This document shows positions 12,014-64,000 of a stretch of 64,000 nt of DNA, piece after piece. The stretch's first letter is position 1, and every line of letters starts with the position of its first letter. Below the pieces are notes generated by a model, which did not search any database, was not told the origin of the DNA, and saw nothing but the letters and a program-made list of their open reading frames with translations. Position numbers and translations under genes: made by a program. Source of the DNA: Xanthobacter autotrophicus Py2 (lineage in GTDB: Bacteria > Pseudomonadota > Alphaproteobacteria > Rhizobiales > Xanthobacteraceae); contig CP000781.1 of the NCBI GenBank assembly GCA_000017645.1, forward strand, positions 806,001 to 870,000, given 5' to 3'.

Positions 12014-12027
12014 GATCTTCACTCCAT

Positions 12028-12069
12028 GACGGACGCCGGGGAGCCTCTCTCTCCGGCAACCAGCCCGTC
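12028..12069 (-). promoter_or_regulatory. Leader hairpin, copy 2 of a four-copy family
   Basis: Outer arms GACGG and CCGTC and inner arms GCCGG and CCGGC enclose CCTCTCTCTC. It starts 14 bases before the ParB-like start codon. The inner CCTCTCTCTC segment is shared with the copies at 50072 and 51434. Confidence 0.5.
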
Positions 12070-12130
12070 GCGAACTCCCCATCCCTCCTTTCACTCTCCG
12101 GGCCCCGCGCCGGCGCAATTCCCATGACCA

Positions 12131-12302
12131 TCAGATCTCGCCTCGGGCGCGCAGGCTGGTCTCCCGGCCGGCGCCGGTGATGATGTGGTCATGCAGCGTC
12201 ATGCCCAGAGCCGCGCACGCCTTCTGGATCTCCATTGTCATCGCGAGATCGGCGGCTGACGGCTCGGGATCGCCGGCCGGGTGATTGTGCACGATGCCAT
12301 CG
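12131..12302 (-). pseudogene. Truncated radC (JAB-domain) remnant
   Basis: The reading frame gives HNHPAGDPEPSAADLAMTMEIQ, then LGMTLHDHIITGAG to a stop. This is the C-terminal end of a RadC-type JAB domain with its HNHPxGD metal motif. Everything upstream of it is missing: the frame continues into AT-rich sequence (about 12300-12345) without RadC resemblance. A normal RadC or JAB plasmid protein has 150-230 residues. The break marks the left edge of the 12.3-21 kb insertion or rearrangement region. Confidence 0.7.
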
Positions 12303-12410
12303 AAAATCCGTAAACGATTGAAATTGCTAAGAAAATTATGCATCTGGCGGAGGTGTAGAGGCTGTAATTGGGGGCGGTCTTGTGTGATGCATCGTGATGG
12401 TCACGCCTCG

Positions 12411-12632
12411 TCACGTGCCATCCGTGTTGAGTCGCTTTGACGCACGACATGTCACCATGTTCTTTTGATCCCAGGCCTCCAAATCGTCAATTGGATAGAG
12501 GACTGCCTTTCCGATCTTGATGAAAGTCGGCCCAACCCTCATTGAACGCCAGTTTCGCAGAGTCCCCACCGAAATTTCGCCGCGATAGCGTTCCGAGACT
12601 TCTTCGGCAGTCAGATATTTCCTCTCATCCAT
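12411..12632 (-). CDS. AlpA/excisionase-type helix-turn-helix protein
   Basis: A 73-residue protein with KYLTAEEVSERYRGEISVGTL, RNWRSMRVGPTFIKIGKAVLYPIDDLEAW, the pattern of MerR-like winged-helix excisionase or AlpA regulators in which a Tyr-pro-x-D-aspartate-rich tail follows the wing. Start is the ATG after GGAGAG. Such genes normally sit beside an integrase, but none is visible here, so it is probably an orphan left from a former mobile element. It binds DNA by inference only. Confidence 0.75.
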   Translation of the reverse strand: MDERKYLTAEEVSERYRGEISVGTLRNWRSMRVGPTFIKIGKAVLYPIDDLEAWDQKNMVTCRASKRLNTDGT

Positions 12633-13306
12633 TGATCTCTCCTGCATCTCGTCACTGGCGACTAATGCCGGGCCACATGCCGACGACGATTCGGCACAGA
12701 TGGCGTTGAGCAGGTTTCGACATGCTGCCGAACGGGCGCTCATGCTGTCGCCCGCCTATGGATGGACGCCCTTTCAGAGAAGGGAAGAATTGAAAGGTCG
12801 TAGTAGTAGGTTCGGATAGCGTCGGATGGAAATCGGATGCTTTGAAAATTCATTTCGATGGCGCGACATCTCACTCCCCCGCCAAGTAGAGATCAAAGTC
12901 CAGCTGTCTTTCAGCCTAGTCGGCTGCTGTCAGGGTAGAATGGGCGGAGGCCGGCGCTCGCAGTTCTGTACCGAGATGGCGCGCCCCAGCGTGGATGAAA
13001 CCGATAACTACATTTCCGCTGGAGCACTATGATATTCCGATCTTCGGCCTGCGATTGTCGCCGCGAACATCCGAGGCTCCCCAAAGCCACTACGATTAAT
13101 CGCCTAGGTGGACGCGCGCCAGGACCGCGCGCATTAGTCGGAACTCGCGACAACAACAAGGTATCCGTAGGGGCTCTCTACCCATATCTCCCTTCGGCGG
13201 GAGTTCTAGTTGAGCAGGAGGCGACCGCGAGGAACCAGGCCCTGGCCGGCTCCTCAAGCGCTCTTCTGAGAGTGGACGGGGCCAGCGGTAGCTCGCACCG
13301 GCGTGT
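12633..13306. other. Gene-poor stretch
   Basis: No frame here has a recognisable product, a good ribosome site or codon use like the neighbours. The base composition is lower in GC than the flanking backbone. It lies between the orphan excisionase-type gene and a DUF1801 remnant and looks like decayed DNA. Confidence 0.5.
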
Positions 13307-13491
13307 TCAGTGCCACGGCGGTGCGATGACCGCCTTCAGCACCTTTTCATCAATCTTGTCGCCCCCATGGAATCGATGGCACGCTTGGTGTTGCCTTCGA
13401 GGCTGGAGTTGAAGAGGCCTGAAGGGTCCTCCAACGAGGTGCTCTTGGCGAAGGTCATCCGCACGACATTCTAGTACGTCTCACCGGGCCA
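13307..13491 (-). pseudogene. DUF1801-type protein remnant
   Basis: Reading on the minus strand gives WPGETY, a stop, then NVVRMTFAKSTSLEDPSGLF, NSSLEGNTKRAID and, after a frameshift, GDKIDEKVLKAVIA. This closely follows the C-terminal half of DUF1801 proteins. A stop and a frameshift interrupt it and no start is left, so it is a dead fragment. Recognition is by eye. Confidence 0.6.
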
Positions 13492-13560
13492 CTGTCCCGG
13501 GATGTCCGAATCCGAGGCAGTCATTTCCAATGTTCGCGAATCTTAGCGAAGTTGAAGACC

Positions 13561-14505
13561 TCAAGCGCTTGGCCCTTCTCGTCGTTCTATTGATCCTTGC
13601 TTGACTAGCATGTTCTCAACTTGACGCGCCCGATCAGCTTCCTGGTGCAACCAACCGCGAAAAGCTAGAAGTGCCGGATCTTCCTTTCGAATAGCGCGGT
13701 ATTCTAGAAGCCAACCCCCGACTGTGTGCGCGACGATCGGGAATGGCGCGACCAAGCGGCCCGCTGCCAGGGCATCGCTGACGTAAGGGATTTGAGCGAT
13801 GGCGACTCCGACCCCGTCGAGCGCTGCCTGCATCGCCATGACATTGCTCTCGAATGACACTTCACCGGCGGGGTGCACGGGGGAGCGTAAGCCCGCCGCC
13901 GCGAACCAGTGTGGCCATTCGTTTGGCATGTGGGACACGACGATGAGAGTCGCGTTGCGCAAGTCGTCAGGCGAGCGCAGCGTCGATGCGAGCTTAGGCG
14001 TGCAGACCGGCACGACGGTGCTCGGGAATAGGCATTCTGCATTGTAGCCCGGTAACGCGTCGGTATCGCGTCGGATAGTGCAGGTCCAGTCATCGCGTAC
14101 CGGGCGAGTTGCGCCACCCGTCGCCATGCGCACTTCGACGTCGGGATGGCTGCGATAGAAGTGTGCCAGTCGCGGGATCAGCCAAGTGACCGCCAGGGTT
14201 GGGCCGACTCCAACCGTTAGCACCGGGCCACCACGCATCGCCGTAACGCTTTCAGTGAGCCGGGCGATGGTATCGAAAGCATCGGTCAGACCGGACAGCA
14301 GTGCCTGCCCTTGCGCCGTTAGCTCAAGCGCGTTCGCATGTCGCCGGAACAGAGGAAAACCAAGACGATCCTCCAGCAGACGGACCAAGCGGCTTACCGC
14401 TGTTTGGGTGACGTTCAGCTCTCTTGCCGCGGCGGTGAAACTGCCGTGCCGGCCAGTTGCCTCAAAAGCGCGCAGTCCGTTCAGCGAGGGTAGCCGCCGC
14501 ATCAT
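13561..14505 (-). CDS. LysR-family regulator (GcvA-like)
   Basis: A 314-residue LysR-type regulator. The N-terminal winged HTH reads PSLNGLRAFEATGRHGSFTAAARELNVTQTAVSRLVRLLEDRLG, and the rest is the two-lobed effector-binding domain. LPSLNGLRAFEA is typical of the GcvA-like subgroup. It is transcribed divergently from the cupin-efflux genes, 220 bases apart, the usual arrangement for a LysR protein controlling its neighbours. I chose the double ATG (MMRRLPS) because the 37 residues upstream do not resemble the family. Effector unknown. Confidence 0.9.
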   Translation of the reverse strand: MMRRLPSLNGLRAFEATGRHGSFTAAARELNVTQTAVSRLVRLLEDRLGFPLFRRHANALELTAQGQALLSGLTDAFDTIARLTESVTAMRGGPVLTVGVGPTLAVTWLIPRLAHFYRSHPDVEVRMATGGATRPVRDDWTCTIRRDTDALPGYNAECLFPSTVVPVCTPKLASTLRSPDDLRNATLIVVSHMPNEWPHWFAAAGLRSPVHPAGEVSFESNVMAMQAALDGVGVAIAQIPYVSDALAAGRLVAPFPIVAHTVGGWLLEYRAIRKEDPALLAFRGWLHQEADRARQVENMLVKQGSIERREGPSA

Positions 14506-51475: not shown

Positions 51476-51600
51476 ACGAAACCCCCGTCTGCACTCTCAC
51501 TCTCGGGGCGCGGGGTTCCCCCGCAGAAGGGGTCGGCCGAGACGAAAGGCTCGGCCGCAAGGGAAGGCCTTCCCCACCCGAGGGTCGTTGCCTCACGGCC

Positions 51601-51629
51601 TTTCCGGGTTGGAGGACCGGAAGCGATTA
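51601..51629 (+). promoter_or_regulatory. Bipartite promoter-like element 1 (before caspase gene)
   Basis: TTTCCGGGTT (51601-51610), 13 bases, then CGATTA (51624-51629). The same pair with identical spacing lies before the sigma-like gene and the ubiquitin-like gene. A transcript would begin near 51636, so translation must start downstream; the TTG at 51689 is 60 bases from the second box. Confidence 0.75.
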
Positions 51630-51688
51630 TAGAATTGGGACTGCCATGGAGCGGCCAAGCGAAAAATCTGGATGACGAGGAATTCGAA

Positions 51689-53152
51689 TTGACGGTGAAA
51701 CGGAAAATGGCGGCGCTGGTGATCGGGAACGGTGCCTACCGCGATTGCGGCGTGCTGAAGAACCCGGTGAACGACGCCGACGACATGGCGACGAAGCTCA
51801 GGTCCTACGGATTCCATGTGGTCTCGAGCGCCGACGCGACGCGCATCGACATGGACCGCAGGCTCCGCGAGTTCAAAGACCTGCTCGCGACCAATGACGT
51901 CGGGCTGTTTTTCTTCGCCGGGCACGGCATGCAGATCGACGGAACGAACTACCTCCTCGCAACCGACACGGACACCTCGTCGGAACTCGACGCGAAGCAC
52001 AGCTCGCTTTCGCTCGATAAGGTCATCGACACGATGGCGAAGTCACAGGCCTCGATGAAGATCATGATTCTCGACGCCTGCCGTAACAACCTGTGGGAGC
52101 GGGCTTGGCATCGCGATGCATCGACGCGGGGCTTGGCCTCGGTGTACGCCCCGAAAGGCACGATCATCGGCTTTGCGACCTCGCCCGGCGAAGTCGCCGA
52201 AGACGGCACAGGTCGCAACGGTACCTATACCGCCGCACTGCTGCAGCATATCGACACGCCGGATTGCTCGATCGAGACGATGTTCAAGCGGGTGCGGAAC
52301 ACCGTGGCGGCCGAAACGCGCGGGAAGCAGACATCCTGGGAGCACACCTCGCTCTCGGGGGAGTTCTATTTCAACATGAGCCTCGGCCGTGTCATCCGGG
52401 AATATAAAGAAACTTCGCTCGCCGACGGCCTCTTCGTCATCGACACGAGCAAGAAGTCACACCGGATTATTCAAGGCCTGAAGAGCCACAACTGGTACAC
52501 GCAGAACGACGCCTTGGGGATGCTTGATGCGGCATCGGCTTCGAAGATGGCGGATGACAGCCTGTTCGTCGTGGGGCGCAACATCTACCAAGCCGCCTGT
52601 GGTGGCGCGAATGCGGCGATCCCTTTCGCCACGAACTTCCTCACTGAGACGAGCGGCTATCCCCCGGAGAAGCGCAAGGCGCTTCTGGATGGCATGTTGT
52701 TCGAGATATTCTTCAACCCGAAGGGGGAGCTGCGAGAGGCGATCAAGGACGGCTACTTCGACGAGCTCTTCGAGTTGCAGCGATATGCCGAGACCAAGGA
52801 GAGCTTCCGGTTCATCAGCGACGCGCTGCAGGCTGCCCGCGGCGATTTCTATGCGCTGCCGGGCAAGAACCGCGAGGTCGCCGTCACTGTCGCGACCAAG
52901 AAAATGAAGGACGGTTATAGGGTGGAGGCCGTGTTCGTGGACGGCGCCGATGTCTTGCGGGCGAAAGACGAGGAATGGGACGTGCCCGAGGCGGAGCGGT
53001 TCTATGAACGCAAGGATCTGGACGCGCTCGTCAGGCAGCTGTCGGCCGAGATGGTGGTCCCCGGCCGATCGCTCAAGGTGACGTTCACGCCCATTGCGGC
53101 GGCGAACGCCGAGTTGCGGTTCCCGACGGGGTGGACGGTTCGCAAGGCTTGA
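51689..53152 (+). CDS. Caspase-like protease with long C-terminal domain
   Basis: A 487-residue protein. Residues 1-230 form a caspase-like domain: AALVIGNGAYRDCGVLKNPV, LFFFAGHGMQIDGTNYLLAT with the catalytic His near 80, and KIMILDACRNNLW with the catalytic Cys near 131. The C-terminal 250 residues (SLADGLFVIDTSKKSHRIIQ, LFVVGRNIYQAACGGANAA, and a final beta-rich segment) match nothing I know and may sense a signal or bind a partner. A longer frame begins with TTG at 51635, but the promoter element overlaps it, so I chose TTG 51689 (GAGG nine bases upstream); GTG 51695 and ATG 51707 remain possible. It shares its promoter element with the sigma/helicase and ubiquitin-like operons, which makes it the likely killing effector of that system. 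Confidence 0.85.
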   Translation: MTVKRKMAALVIGNGAYRDCGVLKNPVNDADDMATKLRSYGFHVVSSADATRIDMDRRLREFKDLLATNDVGLFFFAGHGMQIDGTNYLLATDTDTSSELDAKHSSLSLDKVIDTMAKSQASMKIMILDACRNNLWERAWHRDASTRGLASVYAPKGTIIGFATSPGEVAEDGTGRNGTYTAALLQHIDTPDCSIETMFKRVRNTVAAETRGKQTSWEHTSLSGEFYFNMSLGRVIREYKETSLADGLFVIDTSKKSHRIIQGLKSHNWYTQNDALGMLDAASASKMADDSLFVVGRNIYQAACGGANAAIPFATNFLTETSGYPPEKRKALLDGMLFEIFFNPKGELREAIKDGYFDELFELQRYAETKESFRFISDALQAARGDFYALPGKNREVAVTVATKKMKDGYRVEAVFVDGADVLRAKDEEWDVPEAERFYERKDLDALVRQLSAEMVVPGRSLKVTFTPIAAANAELRFPTGWTVRKA

Positions 53153-53358
53153 GCCTGGTTCGCGTCCGCGGGCGGTGCCGGCTCGGCCAGCGGGGACAAT
53201 CGTGTCGTTAAATTCAAACGGGATATCAGACGCTTATGGGCCAACAACAGAACATGTCGTGCTGGGCGGCCGGCGCGTTTTCCGCTAGGATCAGCCTGCA
53301 ATTCGCTAGCGCTGTGCCGGTCGCGGCGAAAAAAAATTGTGCGGCGACGCGGATTCCC

Positions 53359-53387
53359 TTTCCGGGTTCCCTAGGACGACGCGATCA
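53359..53387 (+). promoter_or_regulatory. Bipartite promoter-like element 2 (before sigma-like gene)
   Basis: TTTCCGGGTT (53359-53368), 13 bases, then CGATCA (53382-53387), 66 bases before the sigma-like ATG. The rest of the 300-base gap contains an A-rich run (about 53328-53340) and no gene. Confidence 0.8.
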
Positions 53388-53452
53388 AGGTAGTGACGGG
53401 CCGGCCATCAGGTCACCCGGTCTGACCGCTGTTGCGAGAGCATGGGGGGACG

Positions 53453-54244
53453 ATGGCGCGACCGTTAACGAAAACCGAAGCGGACGGGACGCTCTACCGC
53501 CGACCTGCACCTGTCGAGGCGCAGGTGGATGAGGCGGTGCAGCTGAAGTTACCGGATCTGCAGAGCCGACTCTTGGTCACGGACAGGAATGACGCCGCTT
53601 ACTTGCGGTCAGAATGCCTCGTGCACCTTCTGCGCCACGGCCGTCGGGCTGGGGATCAAGCGCTCATGAGCGCGGTGCTGCCGGTCCTGCTCAGTCGATG
53701 CGAGGCCAATCTTTTGGTCACCGTTCCTGACGGCCGCATGCCGGATGCCACCAGCCTGCGCCAGGACATCCTGGATGAGCTCACCGAACTCTTTGTGCTC
53801 GACGGCTTGGGAGAGAATCCCGCCGAGCTCGACTTCTATGAATGCCGCTTCAACAAGGCGTTTCGGACTCTTCGGATCGACGCCGTTCGCCGGGCCGCCC
53901 GCCGCAGCAAGGAGATCATCGATGTGGCCGCGCTCCCGCCGTCCGAGGCCGAAGGTGAGCCCGACGCCTACGAGGATGCGTTCGCGCGCGTCTCGGACGC
54001 CTTCAAGGTCTTTCCGACCCAGGAGTGGGATGCTTTCCGGGAACCGTTCGTGAACGCGATCGAAGCCTTGCCGCCCGACGAGCGCGAAGCGGTCATCCTG
54101 GTCCATGTCCTCGGCTACAAAGAAGAGTCCGAAGACCCGAATGAGGAGACGGCGGCGACGCGCTGCAACTGCACCGGACGCACCATTCGCAATCGGCTGA
54201 CGCGCGCTGCGGGGAAGCTCGCGCGTTTCAAGGAGGATTTATGA
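53453..54244 (+). CDS. Sigma-70-family (ECF-like) factor
   Basis: A 263-residue protein. The central part (DILDELTELFVLDGLGENPA, DFYECRFNKAFRTLRIDAVRRAARR) fits sigma region 2, and the C terminus (IEALPPDEREAVILVHVLGYKEE, ETAATRCNCTGRTIRNRLTRAAGKL) fits the region 4 HTH. The first 60 residues are an extension. It has a GGGGGG ribosome site, and its stop overlaps the next ATG (ATGA). The same promoter-like element stands before this gene and two neighbouring operons, which suggests that it switches on itself, the caspase gene and the ubiquitin-like operon. A Cys-x-Cys in the recognition helix is unusual. Sigma activity is inferred; it could be a sigma-like regulator that no longer binds core polymerase. 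Confidence 0.75.
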   Translation: MARPLTKTEADGTLYRRPAPVEAQVDEAVQLKLPDLQSRLLVTDRNDAAYLRSECLVHLLRHGRRAGDQALMSAVLPVLLSRCEANLLVTVPDGRMPDATSLRQDILDELTELFVLDGLGENPAELDFYECRFNKAFRTLRIDAVRRAARRSKEIIDVAALPPSEAEGEPDAYEDAFARVSDAFKVFPTQEWDAFREPFVNAIEALPPDEREAVILVHVLGYKEESEDPNEETAATRCNCTGRTIRNRLTRAAGKLARFKEDL

Positions 54245-54903
54245 GCCAGACCCTCAATGCAAATCCGCACAGCTTAAGGGACGCGTTCTATGCGCTTTCC
54301 ATCGCTCAGGACATTCCGGACGCCAAACTGCTGGACGACATCGTGCGGCGTTATCCCAAGTTCGGCGAGGAGCTGACCGAATTCGCCATTGCGCTTGCGG
54401 TCGATGCGCTCCGGGGCGCGCGCGTGATCGAGGCGGCCGAGGCGGCGCTCGATCCAAATGTGGTCAGTCCCGCGGTGAGCCGCGCGATCAGCCATTTCCA
54501 GAACCGACTTCACGCGGTGACGGTCGACGCGCGCGCAACGGAGGCGAAGCGAGCGCCGGCGACCTCCGCGGATGCGCCTAATCCGTTCTTGGCGCTGCCT
54601 CGCCAAGAATTCCGCGCGCTGGCCGAGCGGCTAAACGCGAACGCGGTGTTTGTCGGCAAGCTGCGCGATCGTCAGATCGACCCGAGGACGATGACGTCCG
54701 GGTTTCAGCGGCGGGTCGCCGAGGAGCTGAAAGCACCACTCGAGGTCGTGGTTGCGCATTTCGCTGCCAGCCAGTCGGCGCCGGCGCGACAGTTCTTCAA
54801 GGCCGAAAGCAAACCGTCGGCCGGCGGCCAGCAGACGTTCGAAGAGGCGGTCAGAAGTTGTGGCCTCACCGAGGCCCAACAACAGACGCTCCTGGAGCTT
54901 TGA
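54241..54903 (+). CDS. HTH-like protein, probable partner or repressor of the sigma-like factor
   Basis: A 220-residue soluble protein. N-terminal half is helical (LRDAFYALSIAQDIPDAKLL, DDIVRRYPKFGEELTEFAIA). Residues about 115-180 (FLALPRQEFRALAERLNANA, VFVGKLRDRQIDPRTMTSGF, QRRVAEELKAPLEVVVAHF) resemble a lambda-repressor-type HTH as found in antitoxins. It is translated from AAGGAGG inside the sigma gene's last codons and followed after three bases by a protein with an ImmA/IrrE protease domain. ImmA/IrrE proteases cut HTH repressors in known systems, so this protein is a good candidate for the substrate that holds the sigma-like factor inactive. That role is inference. Confidence 0.65.
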   Translation: MSQTLNANPHSLRDAFYALSIAQDIPDAKLLDDIVRRYPKFGEELTEFAIALAVDALRGARVIEAAEAALDPNVVSPAVSRAISHFQNRLHAVTVDARATEAKRAPATSADAPNPFLALPRQEFRALAERLNANAVFVGKLRDRQIDPRTMTSGFQRRVAEELKAPLEVVVAHFAASQSAPARQFFKAESKPSAGGQQTFEEAVRSCGLTEAQQQTLLEL

Positions 54904-54906
54904 TAC

Positions 54907-57900
54907 GTGGACGCCTTCGAGCCCATCCGGTCCAAGGCCGCAGCGCTTCATGGCCAGCTGGTCTCGGAGGGGTGTGACCCGTTTGACCCGCTCGCGCTCG
55001 TTCTGGCCGCCGCCGCCAAGCTCGATCTCCAGGTCGTCTGGCTTCCTGCCGGCGATCCTGCACTGAAGGGCGCGCGGGCTCTGTACGACGACCAAGGCGG
55101 CACCGTCTGTTGCGAGCAGGAGCCTGATCCGGCGACACGTGCACTGTTGGTAGCACACGAAATCGGACACGCCGATCTGCATGCTGGATCGGCGGTGTGC
55201 GCCAGCGGCGACATCGATCCGTCGAGAAGCACGGAGGCGGCGCCCGTCGGATTGCAGCGGGTGGAAGACTACGGCGCTCGCGAACGGCGCGAACTGCAAG
55301 CCAATGTCTATGCGCGCGAACTCGTCCTCCCGCGCGTAGTCGCGCGGGACCTGCATGTCTCACGCGGGATGACGGCGAGCGCCATCGTCGATCGAACGAA
55401 ACTGTCCATGCCTCTGGTTCGCCAGCAGTTGTTCGACGCGCTCCTCTTGCCGCCCTTGGGCGACATTGAAAGCGAGCCGCCCGTCGGTGTCGTCGCGACG
55501 CCGAGGCACGACCCGTCACAAGATCGCGCTGCCGCACACCGCGACACACCGTTTCAGCTGCAGGCCGGCCCGGGCACGGGCAAGACGCGAACCTTGGTCA
55601 AGCGGGTGCTGTCGTTGCTGGCCGACGGTATCGACCCGGCGGCCATTCTTGTCCTGACATTCTCCAACCGCGCCGCCGGCGAACTCTCCGAGCGCCTGAT
55701 TGCGGCCGCGCCGGACGCGGCGCCTAAGCTCTGGATCGGCACCTTCCACGCCTTCGGTTTGGATCTGGTCCGCCGCTACCATGACAAGCTCGGGCTAACG
55801 CCCAACCCGGCGCTCTTCGACCGGAGCGACGCGATCGCGGTTCTCGAAGAAATTCTGCCGACCCTGCCGCTGGTCCACTATCGCAATCTCTGGGATCCGG
55901 CGATGGTCCTGCGCGACATCGTCGCGGCCATCTCGCGTGCCAAGGACGAGCTCGCCGATCCGGCGCGCTATCGCGCGCTGGCGCAAGGCATGGCGGCCGA
56001 GGCCGTCGACGAGGAGGCGCGCATCGCAGCCGCGAAGTGTCTCGAGATCGCCGACATCTATGATCTCTACGAGCAGGCGCTGCGAAAGCACGGCGGCGTG
56101 GATTTCGGCGATCTGATCATGCGCCCGGCGCGCCTCCTCGAAACGGACGAAGCCACGCGCATCGCGGTGCAGCTGCGGCACCGTCACGTGCTCGTCGATG
56201 AATACCAGGACGTCAATCGCGCCAGCGCCCGTCTCCTGAAGCTGGTCGCCGGCGACGGCGAGCGGCTATGGGTGGTCGGCGACGCACGGCAGTCGATCTA
56301 CCGGTTTCGCGGCGCCTCATCGGAGAACATGGTGCGCTTCGGCCGGGACTATCCGGGCGCAGCGGTTGACCAGCTCGGCGTCAATTATCGCTCGACGGAC
56401 CAGATTGTCCGCAGCTTCGTCGCCGTCGCACCGCGGATGGGCGCCTCCCACGGCATGCTGGCGCTGGCGCTCGAGGCGGACCGCGGCGCCGCGCCGAGCC
56501 GCCCTGAAATTTGCCGCTTCGAAACGCTTGACGATGAGGCCGCGGGCCTGGCGGCGAGCATCCGTGAGCTCGAAGGCGCAGGCGTGCGGCTGCGCGATCA
56601 GGCCGTGCTCTGCCGCACCAACGGACGCCTCAATGAGATCGCCGCGGCGCTGGAAGCCCGCGGCATTCCCATCCTCCATCTCGGGAGCCTCTTCGAGCGC
56701 GAAGAGGTCCGCGATCTGCTCTGCCTGCTGAGCCTGGCCGTCGATCCGTTTGGCGACGCCATCGTGCGCGTCGGCGCGATGCCGCGCTACGGCCTCTCGC
56801 TGCAGGATGCGTATTGCGTTTCCCGGCACCTGCGCTCAATCGGCAAGCCAGCGCTTGCCGGCCTCGCGGAGGCCTCGGCCGCGCCGGGCTTATCAACAGC
56901 CGGGCGCGCGGGGGTCGAACGGCTGGCCGCAGACCTGGCCGGCCTGCGCGCGAACGCGAGCGCCTGGGATTTCCTGGCCACCTACCTGCTCGACCGGACG
57001 GACCTTGCAAAACAGCTTAGCCAGGCGGACAGCCTCACCGCACAGATGCGTGCGGTCGCCATCTGGCAATTCCTCAACTTCGTCCGCGAACAAGTGCCGG
57101 TCGGCGGCGGCTTGCCGATCCAGCGGACGCTGGACCGTGTGCGCCAGCTCGTCTTGCTGGCCGAGGAGCGCGATCTGCGCCAGGTCCCGGCCGCTGCGCT
57201 GCATCTGGATGCCGTGCGGCTGATGACGGTGCACGGCAGCAAGGGCCTCGAGTTCGAGGCAGTCCATATCCCCGGCCTGACGGTCGCAAGCTTTCCGAGT
57301 TCGAATCGTGGTCAGCGTTGTCCGCCACCGCGCGGCATGGTCGAGGGTGCCGGCGATCTTTCGCCCGCCGACGAGGCGAAGCGCGCGCATGACGACGAAG
57401 AGGAGTGTCTCTTCTTCGTCGCGCTGTCGCGCGCCCGAACGCACCTGCGTCTCTACCATGCGCGCAAGCAGCGCAATGGGAGCGGTCGATCTGCCTCGCC
57501 CTTCTTAGGTTGGATACCGGCGACCCTCCTGGACGAGATCTCGAATCCACCGACTCTTCCGCTGCCGGCAGGCGCGTCCACGTCGCAGCCGATCGCGATC
57601 GCCTGGCCGGCCGACTGGTCCGTCACGGACAGCCGTCTGGGGTCGTATGAGAAGTGTCCGCGCCGGTTCTTCTACACCCACGTTCTGGGCCTCGGCGGGG
57701 CGCGCAAGCCCACGGCCTTCTCGCGGACCCATGACTGTCTCTACGATCTGCTGCGGTGGCTTGCCGATACGCGGCGCACGGCCGAGCCCACCGTCGCGGA
57801 CGCGGAATCCGCATTCGAGAAAATCTGGGGCACGCGGGGCCCGACGGATCACGCCTTTGCAGCGGACTATCGCCGGCTCGCATCCCGCTTGATCGGAGCA

Positions 57901-58338
57901 CTGGTCAGATCCGGAGCCGGACGGCGGTTTCGCGAGGCGCAGCCTCTTGCGATCGATTTTCCCAACGGGCGGGTGGTGGTGGAGCCGAACGAGCTCGCCG
58001 AGCTGCCCGATGGCACGGTCGTCATTCGCCGGGTGCGGACCGGTCACAAACGCAGCGACGAATATGACCGGCTCGAATACACGCTTTATCATCTTGCGGC
58101 GGAGAGCCAGTTCGGCGGTCGCGCGGTCGTTCAGGCGCTGCATCTGACCGATGAAACGGCGGAGGCCGTCGCCATCAGCGCTACCAAGCTCGGCAACCGC
58201 AAGAAGAAGAGCGACGGGATGCTGGCCGGCATCGCCGGCGGCGCCTTCCCGACCGAGGTGGACGTCGTGACGTGCCCGCGCTGCCCGCACTTCTTCGTCT
58301 GCGCCGCGACGCCGCCAGGCCCCCTCACGCTCGACTAG
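54907..58338 (+). CDS. ImmA/IrrE metalloprotease-UvrD helicase fusion with degenerate RecB-type nuclease domain
   Basis: A 1143-residue fusion, GTG start, GGAG eight bases upstream. Residues 1-180: ImmA/IrrE-like protease with VAHEIGHADLH (zinc HEIGH at 84-88) and RRELQANVYARELVLP (Glu ligand near 129). Residues 205-880: UvrD/PcrA-type helicase with LQAGPGTGKTRTL, LTFSNRAAGEL, VLVDEYQDV (near 430), GDARQSIYRFRGA, VNYRSTDQI, TVHGSKGLEFEAV (near 775) and FVALSRARTHL. Residues 905-1143: nuclease-like domain with EKCPRRFFY and CPRCPHFFVC, the four Cys of an AddB/Cas4-type iron-sulphur cluster. The catalytic core motif (normally D-Y/F-K-T-G) reads VIRRVRTG, so this nuclease is probably inactive. 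The unit looks like an AddA-type helicase whose DNA binding could control the fused protease. Family calls are firm; coupling is inference. Confidence 0.9.
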   Translation: MDAFEPIRSKAAALHGQLVSEGCDPFDPLALVLAAAAKLDLQVVWLPAGDPALKGARALYDDQGGTVCCEQEPDPATRALLVAHEIGHADLHAGSAVCASGDIDPSRSTEAAPVGLQRVEDYGARERRELQANVYARELVLPRVVARDLHVSRGMTASAIVDRTKLSMPLVRQQLFDALLLPPLGDIESEPPVGVVATPRHDPSQDRAAAHRDTPFQLQAGPGTGKTRTLVKRVLSLLADGIDPAAILVLTFSNRAAGELSERLIAAAPDAAPKLWIGTFHAFGLDLVRRYHDKLGLTPNPALFDRSDAIAVLEEILPTLPLVHYRNLWDPAMVLRDIVAAISRAKDELADPARYRALAQGMAAEAVDEEARIAAAKCLEIADIYDLYEQALRKHGGVDFGDLIMRPARLLETDEATRIAVQLRHRHVLVDEYQDVNRASARLLKLVAGDGERLWVVGDARQSIYRFRGASSENMVRFGRDYPGAAVDQLGVNYRSTDQIVRSFVAVAPRMGASHGMLALALEADRGAAPSRPEICRFETLDDEAAGLAASIRELEGAGVRLRDQAVLCRTNGRLNEIAAALEARGIPILHLGSLFEREEVRDLLCLLSLAVDPFGDAIVRVGAMPRYGLSLQDAYCVSRHLRSIGKPALAGLAEASAAPGLSTAGRAGVERLAADLAGLRANASAWDFLATYLLDRTDLAKQLSQADSLTAQMRAVAIWQFLNFVREQVPVGGGLPIQRTLDRVRQLVLLAEERDLRQVPAAALHLDAVRLMTVHGSKGLEFEAVHIPGLTVASFPSSNRGQRCPPPRGMVEGAGDLSPADEAKRAHDDEEECLFFVALSRARTHLRLYHARKQRNGSGRSASPFLGWIPATLLDEISNPPTLPLPAGASTSQPIAIAWPADWSVTDSRLGSYEKCPRRFFYTHVLGLGGARKPTAFSRTHDCLYDLLRWLADTRRTAEPTVADAESAFEKIWGTRGPTDHAFAADYRRLASRLIGALVRSGAGRRFREAQPLAIDFPNGRVVVEPNELAELPDGTVVIRRVRTGHKRSDEYDRLEYTLYHLAAESQFGGRAVVQALHLTDETAEAVAISATKLGNRKKKSDGMLAGIAGGAFPTEVDVVTCPRCPHFFVCAATPPGPLTLD

Positions 58339-58354
58339 AATCCGCGCCGTCGCC

Positions 58355-58383
58355 TTTCCGGGTTCCTGCTCCGCCGTCGATCA
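58355..58383 (+). promoter_or_regulatory. Bipartite promoter-like element 3 (before ubiquitin-like operon)
   Basis: TTTCCGGGTT (58355-58364), 13 bases, then CGATCA (58378-58383), 64 bases before the ATG of the ubiquitin-like protein. It starts 17 bases after the helicase stop, which gives the conjugation genes their own start point while keeping them under the same control. Confidence 0.8.
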
Positions 58384-58446
58384 ACTGAGCAAAGGGACGG
58401 AGACAGGCACTAGGGCCTCGCACTTCGATCCCCGGAGTGCAGACAC

Positions 58447-58956
58447 ATGAAGTCCATCGACCTGTTCTACCAGGGCGAGGGTGTCGGCGAGATCGCGCAC
58501 ATCGAGCTCGAGCCCGACGCCACCTTCGCCATCCTCAAGGGCCTCTTGGCCGACAAGCACGGCGTCGCCTCGGATGCGATGCTCTTCCTCGAGGACGAGG
58601 ACGAGCCCATCGACGAGGCCGTGCTGCTCAAGGATCGCGCCACCGCCAAAGGCCTCAAGGTCCACATCCACCGCTGCCGTCACATCGAGGTGACGGTGAC
58701 GTTCAACAACGAGACGGTCGAGCGCCGGTTCGCACCGGGTACGACGGTCGCGCGGGTCAAGCGCTGGGCCGCCGAGCACAAGTTCGGAATGTCCGACGAG
58801 GAGGCCGGCGAGCACGTGCTGCAGATCGCCGGTACCCATGACCGGCCGGCGCCGGGGACGCATATCGGCGCGCTCACCGACGGCAAGGTCTGCGGCCTCG
58901 CCTTCGACCTCGTCGCCGACGAGCGGGTGAACGGCGCTTCCGGGGCCGGCGCGTGA
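58447..58956 (+). CDS. Tandem ubiquitin-like (beta-grasp) protein, BilA-like
   Basis: A 169-residue protein made of two beta-grasp domains: residues 1-77 ([46 protein letters not shown]) and 78-160 ([51 protein letters not shown]). The tail reads VNGASGAGA, without an exposed Gly-Gly, so it would need trimming or uses a different end. It is first in a run Ubl-E2-JAB-E1, the order of bacterial ubiquitin-like conjugation (Bil) operons, in which the Ubl is attached to target proteins, for instance phage structural proteins. It overlaps the E2-like gene by GTGA. The target here is unknown. Confidence 0.8.
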
Positions 58957-59426
58957 ACGGGCCGGACCAGCGGGCCTTCGAGGCGGACGTGGCGAAGGCC
59001 ACGTTCCGCCTCGGCGTGGCCGAGCGCCGCTGGCGCCTGGCCGGCGTCTCCTGGCCCTTCGTCTTCATCGGCGCAAGCGCAAGGGACGGCCGCGAGTACA
59101 TCCTGCGCTTCAACTGCGCAGGCTACCCGCAGGCCGCCCCGACGGGAGGGCCGTGGGACCTGAAGACCAACCAAGTGCTCGCCTTCGATCTGTGGCCGCG
59201 CGGGCGAGGCGGGCGCGTGTCGGCGGTCTTCCGCACCGACTGGAAAAACGGCACCGCCCTTTACCTGCCCTGCGACCGCGAAAGCTTCGCAGGCCATGAC
59301 AACTGGCGGCACGAGATGCCGTCGAAGATCTGGCGCCCAGCTGATGGGATCGTCCAGTACCTGGAGCTGGTTCATGAACTTCTTCAATCTCGCGACTATA
59401 CGGCGCCTGTTCGCGCCGCGGCATGA
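58953..59426 (+). CDS. E2-like (UBC-fold) protein, BilB-like
   Basis: A 157-residue protein. After a beta-sheet region ([36 protein letters not shown]) comes the conserved [20 protein letters not shown], in which Cys107 is the likely thioester residue and His115 a conserved companion, then [22 protein letters not shown]. This is the pattern of bacterial E2-like proteins coded with Ubl, JAB and E1 genes. It should take the activated Ubl from the E1-like protein and pass it to a target. It starts with GTG inside the Ubl stop and its end overlaps the JAB-like gene by 53 bases. Confidence 0.75.
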
Positions 59427-59892
59427 GCTGTCCTGCTCGTGGCTGCTGTGGCTGCGGCTTTGCGAGAGGCTGCGTGAGCGCGGCCGCCGGTGCAGCCGGG
59501 AGAGCGGCGCATTCCTGCTTGGGCGTCGGGAAAACGGCCGCGTGCGCGTCGTCGACTTCGTCCTCTACGACGACCTCGATCCACACTGCCTCGACAGTGG
59601 CATCGTGCGCTTCGACGGGCGCTACTTCAGCGAGCTGTGGGCGATCTGCAAGGCGCGCGGCTTGTCGGTCGTTGCCGACATCCACGTTAACCCGGGCGGC
59701 GCGGGACAAAGCGACTCCGACCGCGACCACCCCATGATCTCGCGCGCCGGGCACATCGCTTTGATCCTGCCGCGTTTCGCGACCGGGCGTCAGCCGCGGC
59801 GCGACATCGGCATGTACCGATACCTTGGTGGCAAGCGCTGGGCGACGGTCCCGGCGGCCGAGCGCAGCCGCTTCTTCCACATCGGACTGTAA
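59374..59892 (+). CDS. JAB/MPN-domain protein with altered metal motif, BilC-like
   Basis: A 172-residue JAB-fold protein: [20 protein letters not shown] with the Glu, then [25 protein letters not shown]. The JAMM motif of active deubiquitinases is H-x-H-P...S-x2-D; here the second His is Asn (HVNP), while the first His, Ser and Asp are kept. Bacterial relatives in Ubl operons normally read HTHPGG..QS..D. It should process or remove the Ubl, but the substitution of a zinc ligand may weaken or abolish activity. Start at [11 protein letters not shown] (GGAG upstream), inside the E2-like gene. No sign of a decayed gene otherwise. Confidence 0.8.
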
Positions 59893-59905
59893 GGAGGCGG
59901 CCTTC

Positions 59906-61273
59906 ATGACTGCGTTGATTTCACCAGACTCGTTTCATCGGCTTGTCAAACACGCGATCGATAGCGGGACGGCCGCGAGCGTCGCGGAGGCCGAGGCCCT
60001 ATTCCGCGGCTACCGGCTTGCCGTCGAGATCGATGCGGCCGCCGCTCGCGACCCGGTCCACCAGGCCGCGCTCTTAACGGCCGTCGCCCTTGGCCGCCGC
60101 GTCTTTCTCGGCGGCGTGACGGTCAGCGGCGCGCTCGATGCGCCGCTCGTCCTTTCGATGCCGCTCGGGCGAACGCTCGCCAAGGCTGTTGTTGCGCTCG
60201 GCGGCGCCTTGGAACTCCGCGGTGACGAGTGCCCGACCATCTTCATCGGGGGCGGTCCCGGCGCTCGCCGGGAGGGCTTCTGTGTTCGAACGGCGGCAAG
60301 CGGCTGGCGAGGTGGGATCCTGCCGATCCACTCCGATCTTCAGCCCTCCGCCGGCGCGGCTATGCCGCTGAGCGGCATGCTGTCGGCCGCTTTGGCCGTC
60401 AACGAAGCCTATCTCCATGTGAGCGGCGGCATGCCGGCGGCGGGACGGCGCGTGGTCGGGTTCTCGCTCTGGCGCCCCAGCCCTGACGCGGATTGGCTCG
60501 AGGCGGATGCGCGCGAGCCGGCGCTGACCTACTTGCCTTCCCGGCTGTGGCTGATCGGGCTGGGGCATCTTGGCCAAGCCTATCTCTGGGCACTGGGCCT
60601 TCTCCCGTACCGGGACCCTGCCGAGCTCGCGCTTGTGCTCCAGGACATCGACCTTATCACCGCCTCGACGGAGAGCACCTCGATCCTCAGTGAAAGCGAC
60701 ATGATCGGGCAGCGGAAGACGCGCGCGATGGCGGCGTGGGCGGAGCGCCGCGGCTTTACGGCGTCGATTCAGGAGCGGCTGTTCGCGGCCGACTTCAAGC
60801 GCCAGCCCGAGGAGCCGGCGATCGCCCTGTGCGGACTCGACAACGCGGCGGGGCGCCGAGCCCTCGACCAGGTGGGGTTCGATCTCGTCGTCGAGGCGGG
60901 TTTGGGCCGCGGCCATCGCGACTTCCGCACGATGCGCCTTCACCTGCTGCCCGGCCGCCGGCCAGCGGCAGAGATGTGGAAGGCAGCCGCAGGCGGCGAA
61001 ACGGTCGAGGCGCGACCGGCCTATGCCAAGCTGGTCGCCGAAGGCGTGCTCGACCGGTGCGGCATGACGCTGCTGGCGGGCAAGGCCGTGGGCGCGCCGT
61101 TCGTCGGCTCGGTGGCGGCCTGCCTGGCGCTGTCAGAGGTGCTTCGCTTGCTGCATGGCGGCGAGCTCCATGGGCTCATCGATCTCGACCTTCTGAGCCC
61201 CGAGCAGCGCCTGTTGTGGCGCCATCCCGGCGACTTCAGCCGCTTCAATCCCGGGTTCTCAATGGCCGGGTGA
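59906..61273 (+). CDS. E1-like (ThiF-family) activating enzyme, BilD-like
   Basis: A 455-residue protein. N-terminal 210 residues form a separate domain; from about 215 the ThiF/E1 Rossmann domain follows: LPSRLWLIGLGHLGQAYLWAL (nucleotide loop), ALVLQDIDLITASTESTSIL, AIALCGLDNAAGRRALDQV, and near the end LDRCGMTLLAGKAVGAPFVG, whose Cys is the probable catalytic residue. It should adenylate the C terminus of the Ubl and transfer it to the E2-like protein. GGAGG lies nine bases before the ATG, 13 bases after the JAB-like stop. Belongs to the bacterial E1 group that is coded with Ubl, E2 and JAB genes. Confidence 0.82.
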   Translation: MTALISPDSFHRLVKHAIDSGTAASVAEAEALFRGYRLAVEIDAAAARDPVHQAALLTAVALGRRVFLGGVTVSGALDAPLVLSMPLGRTLAKAVVALGGALELRGDECPTIFIGGGPGARREGFCVRTAASGWRGGILPIHSDLQPSAGAAMPLSGMLSAALAVNEAYLHVSGGMPAAGRRVVGFSLWRPSPDADWLEADAREPALTYLPSRLWLIGLGHLGQAYLWALGLLPYRDPAELALVLQDIDLITASTESTSILSESDMIGQRKTRAMAAWAERRGFTASIQERLFAADFKRQPEEPAIALCGLDNAAGRRALDQVGFDLVVEAGLGRGHRDFRTMRLHLLPGRRPAAEMWKAAAGGETVEARPAYAKLVAEGVLDRCGMTLLAGKAVGAPFVGSVAACLALSEVLRLLHGGELHGLIDLDLLSPEQRLLWRHPGDFSRFNPGFSMAG

Positions 61274-61300
61274 TCAGGGCCGCTCGCGGGTGATGTCGTA

Positions 61301-61540
61301 TTGTGGGTGAGAGATCAGGTGGCGCCGGCCCGCCCCGCGATGTCGCCAAGCAACCGAGGCCACAGGCGAACGGCCGGGATGGAGAAGGCGCCCCTAGGGG
61401 CGGAAATTCTTGGAAATCCGATGTTCCGCTTTATTCGGCGCCTGGCGATTATGTTGATGGGCAACCGTGATCGACAGTGCTCGATGCGGTTGTTCGGCAA
61501 GACGAAGTGGGAATGGAAAGGGGAAACCGGGGGACAATGA
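61301..61540 (+). CDS. Possible small gene between E1-like and nuclease genes
   Basis: A 79-residue frame that ends LFGKTKWEWKGETGGQ and overlaps the next start in the form ATGA. It contains one weakly hydrophobic stretch (FRFIRRLAIMLMG). There is no good ribosome site and I recognise nothing, so the 263-base gap may instead be a leader. The coupling overlap is the only support. Confidence 0.25.
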   Translation: MWVRDQVAPARPAMSPSNRGHRRTAGMEKAPLGAEILGNPMFRFIRRLAIMLMGNRDRQCSMRLFGKTKWEWKGETGGQ

Positions 61541-64000
61541 ACCGTCGGACCGTCATCGTTGAGGGGCCGCTCGCCTTTCGTATGAGGCGCATCGCCGCCG
61601 CGCGACAGGGCGAAGCTGGCGTACAGATCATGACCTTGCCGCAGCTTGCGGCGCGCCTCGCCGGCGGCTTCACGCGCCCAGCGCGATCCGAGGACCTTGA
61701 CCCGGCGATCCGGTTGGCACTCGACGCCGGCGGTTTCGCCGAACTCGAGAGCATCCGAAGCCTGCCCGGCATGACGCGTTCAGTGGCTTGGACGCTGACC
61801 CGGCTATGGAACGCCGACTTCGCATTGGCCGACCGCGCCCATGAGCGCGCGCGGCTTCAGGATCTTATGACGATCGAGGCGCGCGTGCGTGCGAGCCTGC
61901 CGGCGGGTGTGCTGTCGCCGCGCGATCTGCGCGATGCCGCCCTGCAGCGCGTGACGCACGCGCCAGCGGTCCTCGGCGCGGTCGAGCTTGATCGCGTCGT
62001 GCGCGTCGCCTCGGTTTGGCGGCCGCTGCTCATCGCCCTGGCGCGGCAGGCACCGCTCACCTGGCGCAATCCCGGCGATCCCGATGCCGCCTGGTTCACC
62101 GGCGAGCTTGGTTCCGATCCGCGGCCCACACCGGCGTCGCCTGACATCGTCTCCTGCGCCTCGCCGCGCGCCGAGGCCGTCGAAGCTCTGCGGTGGACCC
62201 GCGAACTCATCGCGTCGGGCCGCGCTCGGCCGGACGAGATCGCCGTCTGCGCCACGGCGACCGAAGATTGGGACGACCACATGCTGGTGCTGGCGGCCGA
62301 CGCCGGTCTGCCGTTGCATTTCTCGCACGGCATGCCGGCCCTGGCGTCGCGCGAAGGGCAGGCCTGTGCCGCCCTGGCCGACGTCTTGATCAACGGGTTG
62401 AGTCAGGGTCGCGTGCGCCGTCTCTTCGGCCACGCCGCCGGGCGCAGCCGCGGCCTCGACGCGCTGCCTCCGAGCTGGGCGCAGGGCCTGCGGCCTGGCG
62501 CTGCCCTCTTCGAGCTTGAGCAATGGCGGCGCGCACTCGATGAAGCCCACGCGCACCGCACGGATGGTGTCGACGTGCGGCCGCTGCTCATCCCGGTTCT
62601 CGAGGTGCTTGCCAGAGGAGCCGCCGCCGCAGATGCGGCCGGGGGCTTGCTGCTCGGACGCGCGGCGCGGGCGCTCTGGGTCGAGGCGCTGCGCCGCGCG
62701 CCGCCAGAGGCGCTCGAATTCTCGCTGCAGGAGCTTCGTCTTCCCGATGGCCGCGACCCGGGCGCCTGCGCGGTCTGGTGTCCAGCGGGTCATCTCGCAG
62801 CGGCGCCACGACGCTTCGTCCGCCTGCTCGGCCTGTCGACGCGATCGTGGCCGCGGCGGTCCGGCGAAGATCCATTGGTTCCGAGCCACATCCTGTCGCG
62901 TGACGCCCTCGATTCCGAGTCGGTCACCGAACAGGACCGGCGCACGTATATGCTCGTCACCGCACAGGCCGGCGGCGCTCTGGTGCTCTCACGCAGTCGC
63001 CGCAACGCCCAAGGCGGGCTGCAGGCGCCCAGTCCGCTCGTGCCGCACGACCCGCGACGCACCACGGCGTTGAAACGCGCACGCGTCCCGAGCCATGCGT
63101 TCAGCGAAGCCGATCGCCTGCTCGCGCGGCCCGAGGAGGCGGCGACCTCGCCTGTGCTGCGAGCAGCTGACGCTTGCTGGCGCAATCGCCGAAGCCCCGC
63201 AGTCACCGCTCATGACGGCCGCGTGCGCGAGGATCATCCCGTCATCGCCCGAGCCATCGCGCAGGTGCAGTCCGCGACGTCGCTTCGCCTCATGCTGCGC
63301 GACCCGCTTGCCTTCGTGTGGCGCTACGCCTTGGGCTGGCGTTCGCTGGTCGAAGACGAACAGCCCTTGTCGCTCGACGCGCGCGCCTTCGGCGAGCTCG
63401 TCCACGAGATGCTGAAACGCACGGTCGACGCGCTCGAACCTCAACCCGGCTATGTGCGCGCGGCCCGCCATGAGATCGAGAACGCCCTCGATGCGGCGTC
63501 CGCCGCCATCGCGGTGCAGTGGCCGGTCGAGCGCTCGACCCCGCCCGTCCTCTTGTGGCGCCACACCCTCGCGGCCGCACGCGATCTCGCGCTGAAGGCG
63601 CTGACGCTCGACGAGGCATTTCAGCCGGTCACGCGCAGCTGGACCGAAGTGGCGTTCGGCCGCGAGGACGACGGGACGAACGCCGCCGGCGATCTGCTGT
63701 GGCCGCCGACAGCGCAGGTGATCATTCCCGGCGCCGGGTTGCGCATTCGCGGCAGCATCGATCGGGTGGATTTCAATAGCGCACACAACGGCGTTCGTGT
63801 CTCCGACTATAAGACCGGCGTCGAACCGCCGAAGGCTAACGAGATCGTTCTCGGGCGCGGCGCCGAGCTGCAGCGCGTGTTCTACGCCTTGGCCGCGCGC
63901 CAACTGGTAGCGGACAATCCGCGGGTCATTGCGCGCCTGGTCTTCCTCGGGACCGATCGGCCCAGGCCGTACAGTCTTCCCGATGTTGATCAGGCGATCG
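61537..64000 (+). CDS. RecB/AddB-family PD-(D/E)XK nuclease, 3' end outside window
   Basis: An open frame of more than 820 residues leaves the right edge without a stop. It starts RTVIVEGPLAFRMRRIAAAR and has a helicase-like body without Walker motifs. At the C terminus are SATSLRLMLRDPLAFVWRYALGW, FGELVHEMLKRT (His motif), LRIRGSIDRVDF and VRVSDYKTG (the Asp and D-x-K of the RecB nuclease) and AELQRVFYALA (Gln-Tyr-type motif). All active-site residues are present, unlike in the helicase fusion at 54907, so this protein probably supplies the cutting activity as in AddAB. It is the last gene in the Ubl operon seen here. Confidence 0.85.
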   Translation, partial: MNRRTVIVEGPLAFRMRRIAAARQGEAGVQIMTLPQLAARLAGGFTRPARSEDLDPAIRLALDAGGFAELESIRSLPGMTRSVAWTLTRLWNADFALADRAHERARLQDLMTIEARVRASLPAGVLSPRDLRDAALQRVTHAPAVLGAVELDRVVRVASVWRPLLIALARQAPLTWRNPGDPDAAWFTGELGSDPRPTPASPDIVSCASPRAEAVEALRWTRELIASGRARPDEIAVCATATEDWDDHMLVLAADAGLPLHFSHGMPALASREGQACAALADVLINGLSQGRVRRLFGHAAGRSRGLDALPPSWAQGLRPGAALFELEQWRRALDEAHAHRTDGVDVRPLLIPVLEVLARGAAAADAAGGLLLGRAARALWVEALRRAPPEALEFSLQELRLPDGRDPGACAVWCPAGHLAAAPRRFVRLLGLSTRSWPRRSGEDPLVPSHILSRDALDSESVTEQDRRTYMLVTAQAGGALVLSRSRRNAQGGLQAPSPLVPHDPRRTTALKRARVPSHAFSEADRLLARPEEAATSPVLRAADACWRNRRSPAVTAHDGRVREDHPVIARAIAQVQSATSLRLMLRDPLAFVWRYALGWRSLVEDEQPLSLDARAFGELVHEMLKRTVDALEPQPGYVRAARHEIENALDAASAAIAVQWPVERSTPPVLLWRHTLAAARDLALKALTLDEAFQPVTRSWTEVAFGREDDGTNAAGDLLWPPTAQVIIPGAGLRIRGSIDRVDFNSAHNGVRVSDYKTGVEPPKANEIVLGRGAELQRVFYALAARQLVADNPRVIARLVFLGTDRPRPYSLPDVDQAI

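Follow-up and report, generated by a model that had tools for sequence, protein, structure and literature searches.

We report the analysis of a 64,000-nucleotide stretch of the Xanthobacter autotrophicus Py2 genome (contig CP000781.1, positions 806,001 to 870,000; hereafter the window, in which position 1 is the first letter), and in particular of three adjoining genes at 53453-58338 that encode a sigma-like factor, an all-helical protein of a new family, which we call gene 3, and a fusion of an ImmA/IrrE metallopeptidase with a UvrD helicase and a PD-(D/E)XK pseudo-nuclease. We read this trio as a controller that would govern the transcription of immune operons: a motor-coupled protease would sense DNA and free a sigma factor. 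We put the probability of this reading at roughly 0.6. How bacteria hold dangerous immune operons off until they are needed is an open question; here, DNA trouble would probably switch ubiquitin-like defences on through a three-gene switch.

In the mechanism that we judge most likely, the sigma-like factor (53453..54244, + strand, as are all features below) would drive a dedicated promoter before the ubiquitin-like cassette that follows the trio; in those relatives whose cassette is a Bil operon it would also drive its own gene and, in the window, that of a caspase-like protease too. Gene 3 (54241..54903), which matches no family, is a candidate sigma inhibitor and a candidate substrate of the protease. 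It would keep the sigma factor inactive until the ImmA-UvrD protein (54907..58338), travelling on DNA, meets a state that phage or damage creates (single strands or breaks being the likeliest), whereupon the protease domain would cut gene 3 and release the sigma factor, and the Bil conjugation proteins and the caspase would be produced.

The controller role proposed for the trio is well supported by comparison with its relatives. Genome contigs were scanned with an alignment of seven helicases, and the best 80 of 308 relatives were kept; these loci were picked by similarity to the window, and the figures given here are valid for this helicase family and not for all UvrD proteins. Where the upstream flank is 1.5 kb or longer (75 loci; the remaining five have less), the sigma-like gene and gene 3 are both found upstream of the helicase in all 75; where the downstream flank reaches that length (again 75 loci), 73 have a ubiquitin-like type of cassette downstream of the controller. 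An earlier note on this DNA had proposed, as a test, that the caspase, helicase and ubiquitin-like units be looked for together in homologous genomes; the helicase and the cassette do keep company, and the caspase does not co-occur. The kept loci come from Pseudomonadota, Acidobacteriota, Planctomycetota and Verrucomicrobiota, some solely as metagenome-assembled genomes, with one archaeal assembly of that kind in which mis-binning is possible, and a cyanobacterial plasmid carries the trio too. Were these genes mere neighbours, in the way that defence genes pile up on mobile elements, they would form no functional unit, and the surroundings have that look: the block belongs to a defence island that adjoins conjugation genes (with AbiE, type I restriction, AbiV and a type IV secretion system), and the caspase, AddAB and IetAS come and go among the relatives. 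Both partner genes nevertheless accompany the helicase in every one of the 75 loci, in several phyla, a promoter-like site sits at a fixed place and the -10 boxes match within a locus, and we disfavour this explanation as very improbable.

Searches anchored on other genes lead to the same arrangement. The gene 3 profile alone matches 5 of 385 genomes of the host's class, and a full-length helicase is found in the same five, with the two genes side by side and a ubiquitin-like cassette in each; in the four besides the window, the helicase is followed by Bil (L108, L109) or by multi-ubiquitin genes (L110, L111), and the sigma-like gene is detected by profile in L109 (20 bits), L110 and L111. The helicase open frame of L108 spans 10639-14001, its in-frame TAA probably being the terminal stop. 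With BilD as the anchor, 36 plasmid records match, and among the 19 that were examined gene 3 and ImmA-UvrD precede Bil in 11, the sigma-like gene being weak in two of these (L103 and L104, 19 and 27 bits) and undetected in two more (L105, and L116, where an insertion element occupies its position). One further locus, L115, has the sigma-like gene and gene 3 without the helicase. A helix-turn-helix (HTH) protein with an ImmA/IrrE protease, separate or fused, stands in the controller's place in five of the 19 (L106, L107 and L117, checked with Pfam; L113 and L114, from the record annotation only), and neither controller lies within the fetched stretch in two (L102, L112). The trio and this CapH+CapP-like pair thus appear to be alternatives at one position before Bil.

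The promoter motif consists of TTTCCGG, a spacer of 16 (15-17) bases and CGATCA or a variant (TTTCCGG-N16-CGATYA), and is found at two places, ahead of the sigma gene and in the stretch that separates the helicase stop from the cassette. A weight matrix was built from 40 sites, leaving out the window, its nearest relatives (L009, L010 and L017-L019), one duplicate record and, for their deviating box, L042, L044 and L067. Scanned over the 64 kb, it gives three strong sites: one before the sigma-like gene (53358..53389, 33.0 bits), which points to probable autoregulation, one directly 3' of the helicase stop codon, before the ubiquitin-like cassette (58354..58385, 31.1 bits), and one before the caspase gene (51600..51631, 25.5 bits; CTTTCCGGGTTG ... 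GCGATTATA). The next site in the window scores 16.3 bits and the best of 20 mononucleotide shuffles 17.8, while in a single shuffle of every Bil locus, 852,521 bases in all, nothing reaches 17 bits. Across the 5.6 Mb genome there are five exact occurrences of the pattern, three of them within the block, and none of a reversed control pattern. A common switch ahead of the ubiquitin-like genes, and a caspase gene placed behind a promoter of that same type, are both supported.

Among 85 related loci, the strict pattern precedes the cassette in 71 (72 with a slightly different span): 25 of 33 Bil loci, 24 of 26 and 17 of 18 loci of the two multi-ubiquitin types and 5 of 8 others. Away from these positions, 1.87 Mb of sequence holds 111 occurrences, of which 106 lie within open frames; at this rate about 0.3 sites would be expected by chance at the cassette positions. 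With a relaxed pattern, the sigma-gene and cassette sites are found together in 30 of the 33 Bil loci, and in 25 of these 30 loci the two -10 hexamers agree with each other (shuffled mean 12.7, with 0 of 2000 shuffles as high). This figure is inflated by kinship among the loci; after dereplication the agreement is 21 of 26, against a shuffled mean of 9.5, again with 0 of 2000 as high. The matrix recovers neither expected site in L015, L042, L044, L065 and L067.

The sigma-like factor carries sigma region 4 (PF08281, E = 3.1e-7), as do all 44 members of its family at E <= 0.5 (best 6.6e-10); solved sigma factors align to it over this region, and Sigma70_ECF is matched in 8 of the 44. The AlphaFold model of gene 3, made with 48 sequences, is all helical (pLDDT 86, pTM 0.56), with four helices at 121-175. 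The label of HTH-like that the earlier note gave to this protein is not established. HTH_3 is matched by 2 of 48 family members (best E 0.11), the gene 3 profile aligns weakly with three CapH-like HTHs (probability 1.4%), and a Foldseek comparison of the model with the PDB returned nothing at E <= 0.001, only 27 chains at E 2.6 to 9.9. Several of these chains are XRE-type regulators, DdrO included, a similarity that is a hint only: by target TM-score, YdaS reaches 0.62, ClgR 0.53, BldD 0.50 and DdrO 0.26, all at E > 2. Gene 3 might instead serve as a co-activator, or might, like DdrO or CapH, repress by binding DNA and be cut by the protease; in either case the controller would work with a sigma-like factor that gene 3 does not hold. 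Such an account, which overlaps the favoured one except in the role of gene 3, draws on those fold scores and on the CapH-like alignment, none of which is significant, and we consider it rather unlikely. Gene 3 as a plain HTH repressor was dropped, the HTH_3, CapH-like profile and fold matches all being non-significant.

A number of results weigh against the reading of the trio as a sigma-releasing controller. Sigma region 2 does not appear among the Pfam families listed for the 44 sigma family members (25 of 40), so that binding of RNA polymerase by the sigma-like factor stays putative. Gene 3 has no HTH or anti-sigma family detectable by Pfam, profile comparison or Foldseek. The sigma-like gene was not detected by profile in three Bil loci that have the helicase and lie beyond the main set (L105, L108, L116). 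The strict cassette pattern is absent from 14 of the 85 loci, and the matrix also hits four sites inside genes of real Bil loci (L011, L015, L039 and L041, 17.3-19.3 bits). By the strict pattern, the sigma gene has its own site in 25 of the 85 loci and none outside the Bil branch, and autoregulation is therefore not general.

The ImmA-UvrD fusion protein of 1143 amino acids matches PF06114 (5.4e-5), PF00580 (5.1e-63) and PF12705 (2.7e-8). In an alignment of 86 rows (L009, L032 and the split L045 were left out), the HExxH motif and E129 of the protease are conserved in 85 rows, with one gapped, the Walker residues of the motor in all 86, and four cysteines in 83 to 86, the others being gapped. 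The acidic position of the nuclease (D/E)xK motif, a column placed by visual comparison with DYKTG, the motif in the AddB of the window, holds no D or E in any of the 84 readable rows (two are gapped), and the lysine position is R in 53 rows and K in 25; the C-terminus of this protein thus lacks the catalytic (D/E)xK of a PD-(D/E)XK nuclease. With the protease and motor residues kept and the nuclease motif lost, the protein looks like a sensor rather than a nuclease, and we read it as a putative DNA-tracking protease.

The solved structures nearest to the motor are PcrA, UvrD and Rep, and PADLOC places it among GajB-like and RTasHel helicases. The latter placement would suit a protein that is itself the effector, in the manner of GajB-like helicase defence, with the sigma-like factor and gene 3 regulating it and the ubiquitin-like cassette a second system under the same promoter. 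A viral sequence is in keeping with this: in a scan of viral contigs, 80 of 199 relatives were kept and, among those kept, the only full-length match was on a phage-like contig (L132:1-4316), where a distant gene 3 and ImmA-UvrD (30% identity) are accompanied by a cut sigma end and no cassette follows them. The missing acidic residue speaks against an effector, as do the position of the cassette promoter 3' of the helicase and the substitution of a simpler HTH+ImmA pair in 5 of 19 Bil loci, and we consider this account improbable. On the controller reading, to which we return, the trio would let one test directly if a helicase is able to serve as the sensor arm of a protease.

What stands behind the controller varies. 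The downstream unit of the window is the known Bil operon, and in relatives it is replaced by other ubiquitin-like cassettes, by a cyclic-oligonucleotide-based antiphage signalling system (CBASS) or by an SMC pair. In the 75 loci with downstream flank, BilABCD is recognised by profile in 29, a multi-ubiquitin gene set of the L050 type (Multi_ubiq + E2, JAB + ThiF, DUF6527) in 25, of which L050 alone was Pfam-checked and the other 24 were assigned by profile score only, and a multi-ubiquitin + E1 + DUF6527 type in 17; two loci have JAB and ThiF genes by Pfam (L063, L073). The outputs that are not ubiquitin-like are a CBASS cyclase with a patatin phospholipase (L064) and a phosphoesterase with an SMC protein (L076), and the cassette site precedes these as well. 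On a quick tree of 65 helicases, with SH-aLRT support values and a few long branches, 8 changes of cassette type are required, against a minimum possible of 5 and 31.9 by shuffling; L015 (Bil), L079 (multi-ubiquitin) and L076 (SMC) are grouped with support of 100. As judged from this tree, the predicted outputs are mostly inherited along with the controller and now and then swapped. In one locus (L101:2824-14989), a single controller has a ubiquitin-like cassette on either side; one of the two cassettes is divergent, and an exonuclease and a YhaN-family gene come after it.

By its anatomy the sigma-like factor would be an activator with a readable promoter, which makes the regulon searchable from sequence alone, as for the caspase. 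A site also precedes a phosphoesterase gene in L031 (24.1 bits) and L030 (17.9 bits). At L031:3461-8392, the sigma-type site is followed by this gene and an open frame of 1207 amino acids, upstream of the controller, and the two are likely a further part of the predicted regulon. Ubiquitin-like conjugation, CBASS and caspase would in this way be placed behind one kind of switch. We tentatively suggest, at somewhat less than even odds, that the trio represents a fourth family of immune controllers, in which a motor-coupled protease converts DNA translocation into the freeing of a sigma factor dedicated to the system, and whose regulon is made of modules (Bil or other ubiquitin-like cassettes, CBASS, SMC-phosphoesterase, caspase) exchanged over evolution. 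If this were true, one bacterial switch would make both ubiquitin-like conjugation and killing of the caspase type answer to DNA damage.

Three families of DNA-damage-responsive controllers are named in passages of PMC13373217. In excerpts of PMC10904395 and PMC13373217, the ImmA/IrrE-type proteases CapP and PprI are described as activated by single-stranded DNA, and a further excerpt associates 219 of 544 Bub operons with CapW or CapH+CapP. The trio resembles CapH+CapP and PprI-DdrO in that the gene next to an ImmA/IrrE-like protease with an HExxH motif encodes a candidate substrate, and in that the two lie ahead of immune operons. It differs in that the protease, rather than being small, separate and unaccompanied by a sigma gene, shares one polypeptide with a UvrD motor and a pseudo-nuclease, in that its partner is not a recognisable HTH repressor, and in that control seems to run through a sigma-like activator and its promoter. 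The partial text of PMC13373217 links CapK+CapS and CapW to Bub and CBASS operons, and CapK+CapS also to Bil, under DNA-damage control; these are a kinase with a STAS repressor and a WYL repressor respectively, both without a sigma-like factor, helicase or protease.

The proposed release of a sigma factor by a protease is the likeness to CalpL/T/S (PMC11417357) and Csx29-Csx30-CASP-sigma (PMC10028731), where a protease cuts the inhibitor of an extracytoplasmic function (ECF) sigma factor in CRISPR-linked antiviral defence and CASP-sigma sites are present in the factor's own locus (PMC10028731). Their signals are cA4 or target RNA, their proteases are of Lon or CHAT type, and they have neither a helicase nor a ubiquitin-like cassette, whereas the trio is proposed to join a protease-released sigma factor with a helicase. 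A caspase-type gene beside an ECF sigma factor is also known from EACC2-caspase neighbourhoods, in which, as far as the accessible text of PMC8195603 goes, the partners are EACC2 and tetratricopeptide repeat proteins and not an ImmA-helicase or a ubiquitin-like cassette. The words "helicase", "UvrD" and "sigma factor" are absent from the main text of a 2006 survey of prokaryotic ubiquitin-like operons (PMC1779556), and the trio was not found in the literature searched, which did not cover the main Bil and Bub papers, so that a prior description is possible.

The trio sits in a block of nine co-directed genes (51635-64000), and the families first given to them were confirmed for the caspase, the sigma-like factor, the ImmA/IrrE-UvrD fusion, the BilA-D-type set and the AddB-type gene. 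BilABCD, the bacterial ISG15-like operon, is known to conjugate its ubiquitin-like protein to a phage structural protein and to protect. All four of its genes match in order at 58447-61273: the double ubiquitin-like BilA (58447..58956, PADLOC 1e-60), the E2-like BilB (DUF7665; 58953..59426, PADLOC 3.1e-62, PF24702 5.4e-73), BilC of the JAB-type deconjugase family (59374..59892, PADLOC 6e-66) and the E1-like BilD (59906..61273, PADLOC 2.5e-172). BilC of the window reads DIHVNP, with Asn at the second JAMM histidine, and lacks the pair of histidines of an active HxH motif; HxHP is kept in 34 of 36 rows, and the two rows without the second His, the window and L009, are one genome. Either this copy is impaired, or the change is tolerated, or it is a sequencing error.

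The caspase-like protease (Peptidase_C14, PF00656, 6e-41; 51695..53152, from an inferred GTG start in a frame open from 51635) has its His and Cys motifs present, and scores 68 bits against the EACC1-associated caspase model, under the cut-off of 140. A caspase of this family occurs in 1 of the 80 related genome loci, the close relative L018, where a like site (26.7 bits) precedes it, and it belongs to the predicted regulon in the window and in that one relative. At L118:8400-10616, a gene annotated as CHAT-domain (caspase-like) adjoins a Bil operon.

The AddB-like PD-(D/E)XK gene (from 61477, running beyond the window end at 64000; 906 amino acids in full, with an AddA-like helicase next) is set apart from the rest. 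The genes had been thought to be joined throughout by overlaps and a shared promoter motif; the motif is real, with its three strong sites, and the linkage fails at this gene, which follows a 203-bp gap and has no promoter site, its start scoring 12.5 bits, at the level of shuffles. AddAB was on that count dropped as a regulon member. Seven of the 80 loci score for an AddAB-like pair, and they fall into three sets: L017-L019; L046, where the pair is on the opposite strand; and L080, L085 and L093. The pair is an optional neighbour and not core. The view of the whole nine-gene block as a single system was likewise abandoned, with the caspase in 1 and the AddAB-like pair in 7 of 80 loci.

The AddAB-like pair recurs beside several ubiquitin-like cassette types, with either controller (also at L008:1477-7517), and a more distant pair has Bil close by in L114 and multi-ubiquitin genes in L101. 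A second AddAB of the host genome (L124), about 78-81% identical to the Ensifer pair of L080, has no gene of the searched profiles beside it in 20 kb. To the right of the block, beyond the window end, lie AddA, AbiE, a type I restriction system and AbiV, and to the left are conjugation genes (TraG/VirB-like ATPases and a relaxase) with ParB-like and Toprim genes; the whole is on the 5.3 Mb contig of a two-contig genome. Searches of the window with Rfam (gathering scores) and for tRNAs gave no matches.

Two further features belong to the multi-ubiquitin loci. Their leaders (L078-L095, about 13430-13485) keep a CCTTAG...CTAAGG stem adjoining the start codon; a structured RNA leader was considered and dropped, since 10 aligned leaders hold 0 pairs changed on both sides. 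In many of these loci, IetAS (an AAA ATPase and a subtilase) lies directly upstream of the sigma gene, as at L050:5173-8564, where its identity is given by PADLOC; in all, high-scoring IetA is found in 13 and IetS in 14 of the 80 loci, upstream of sigma.

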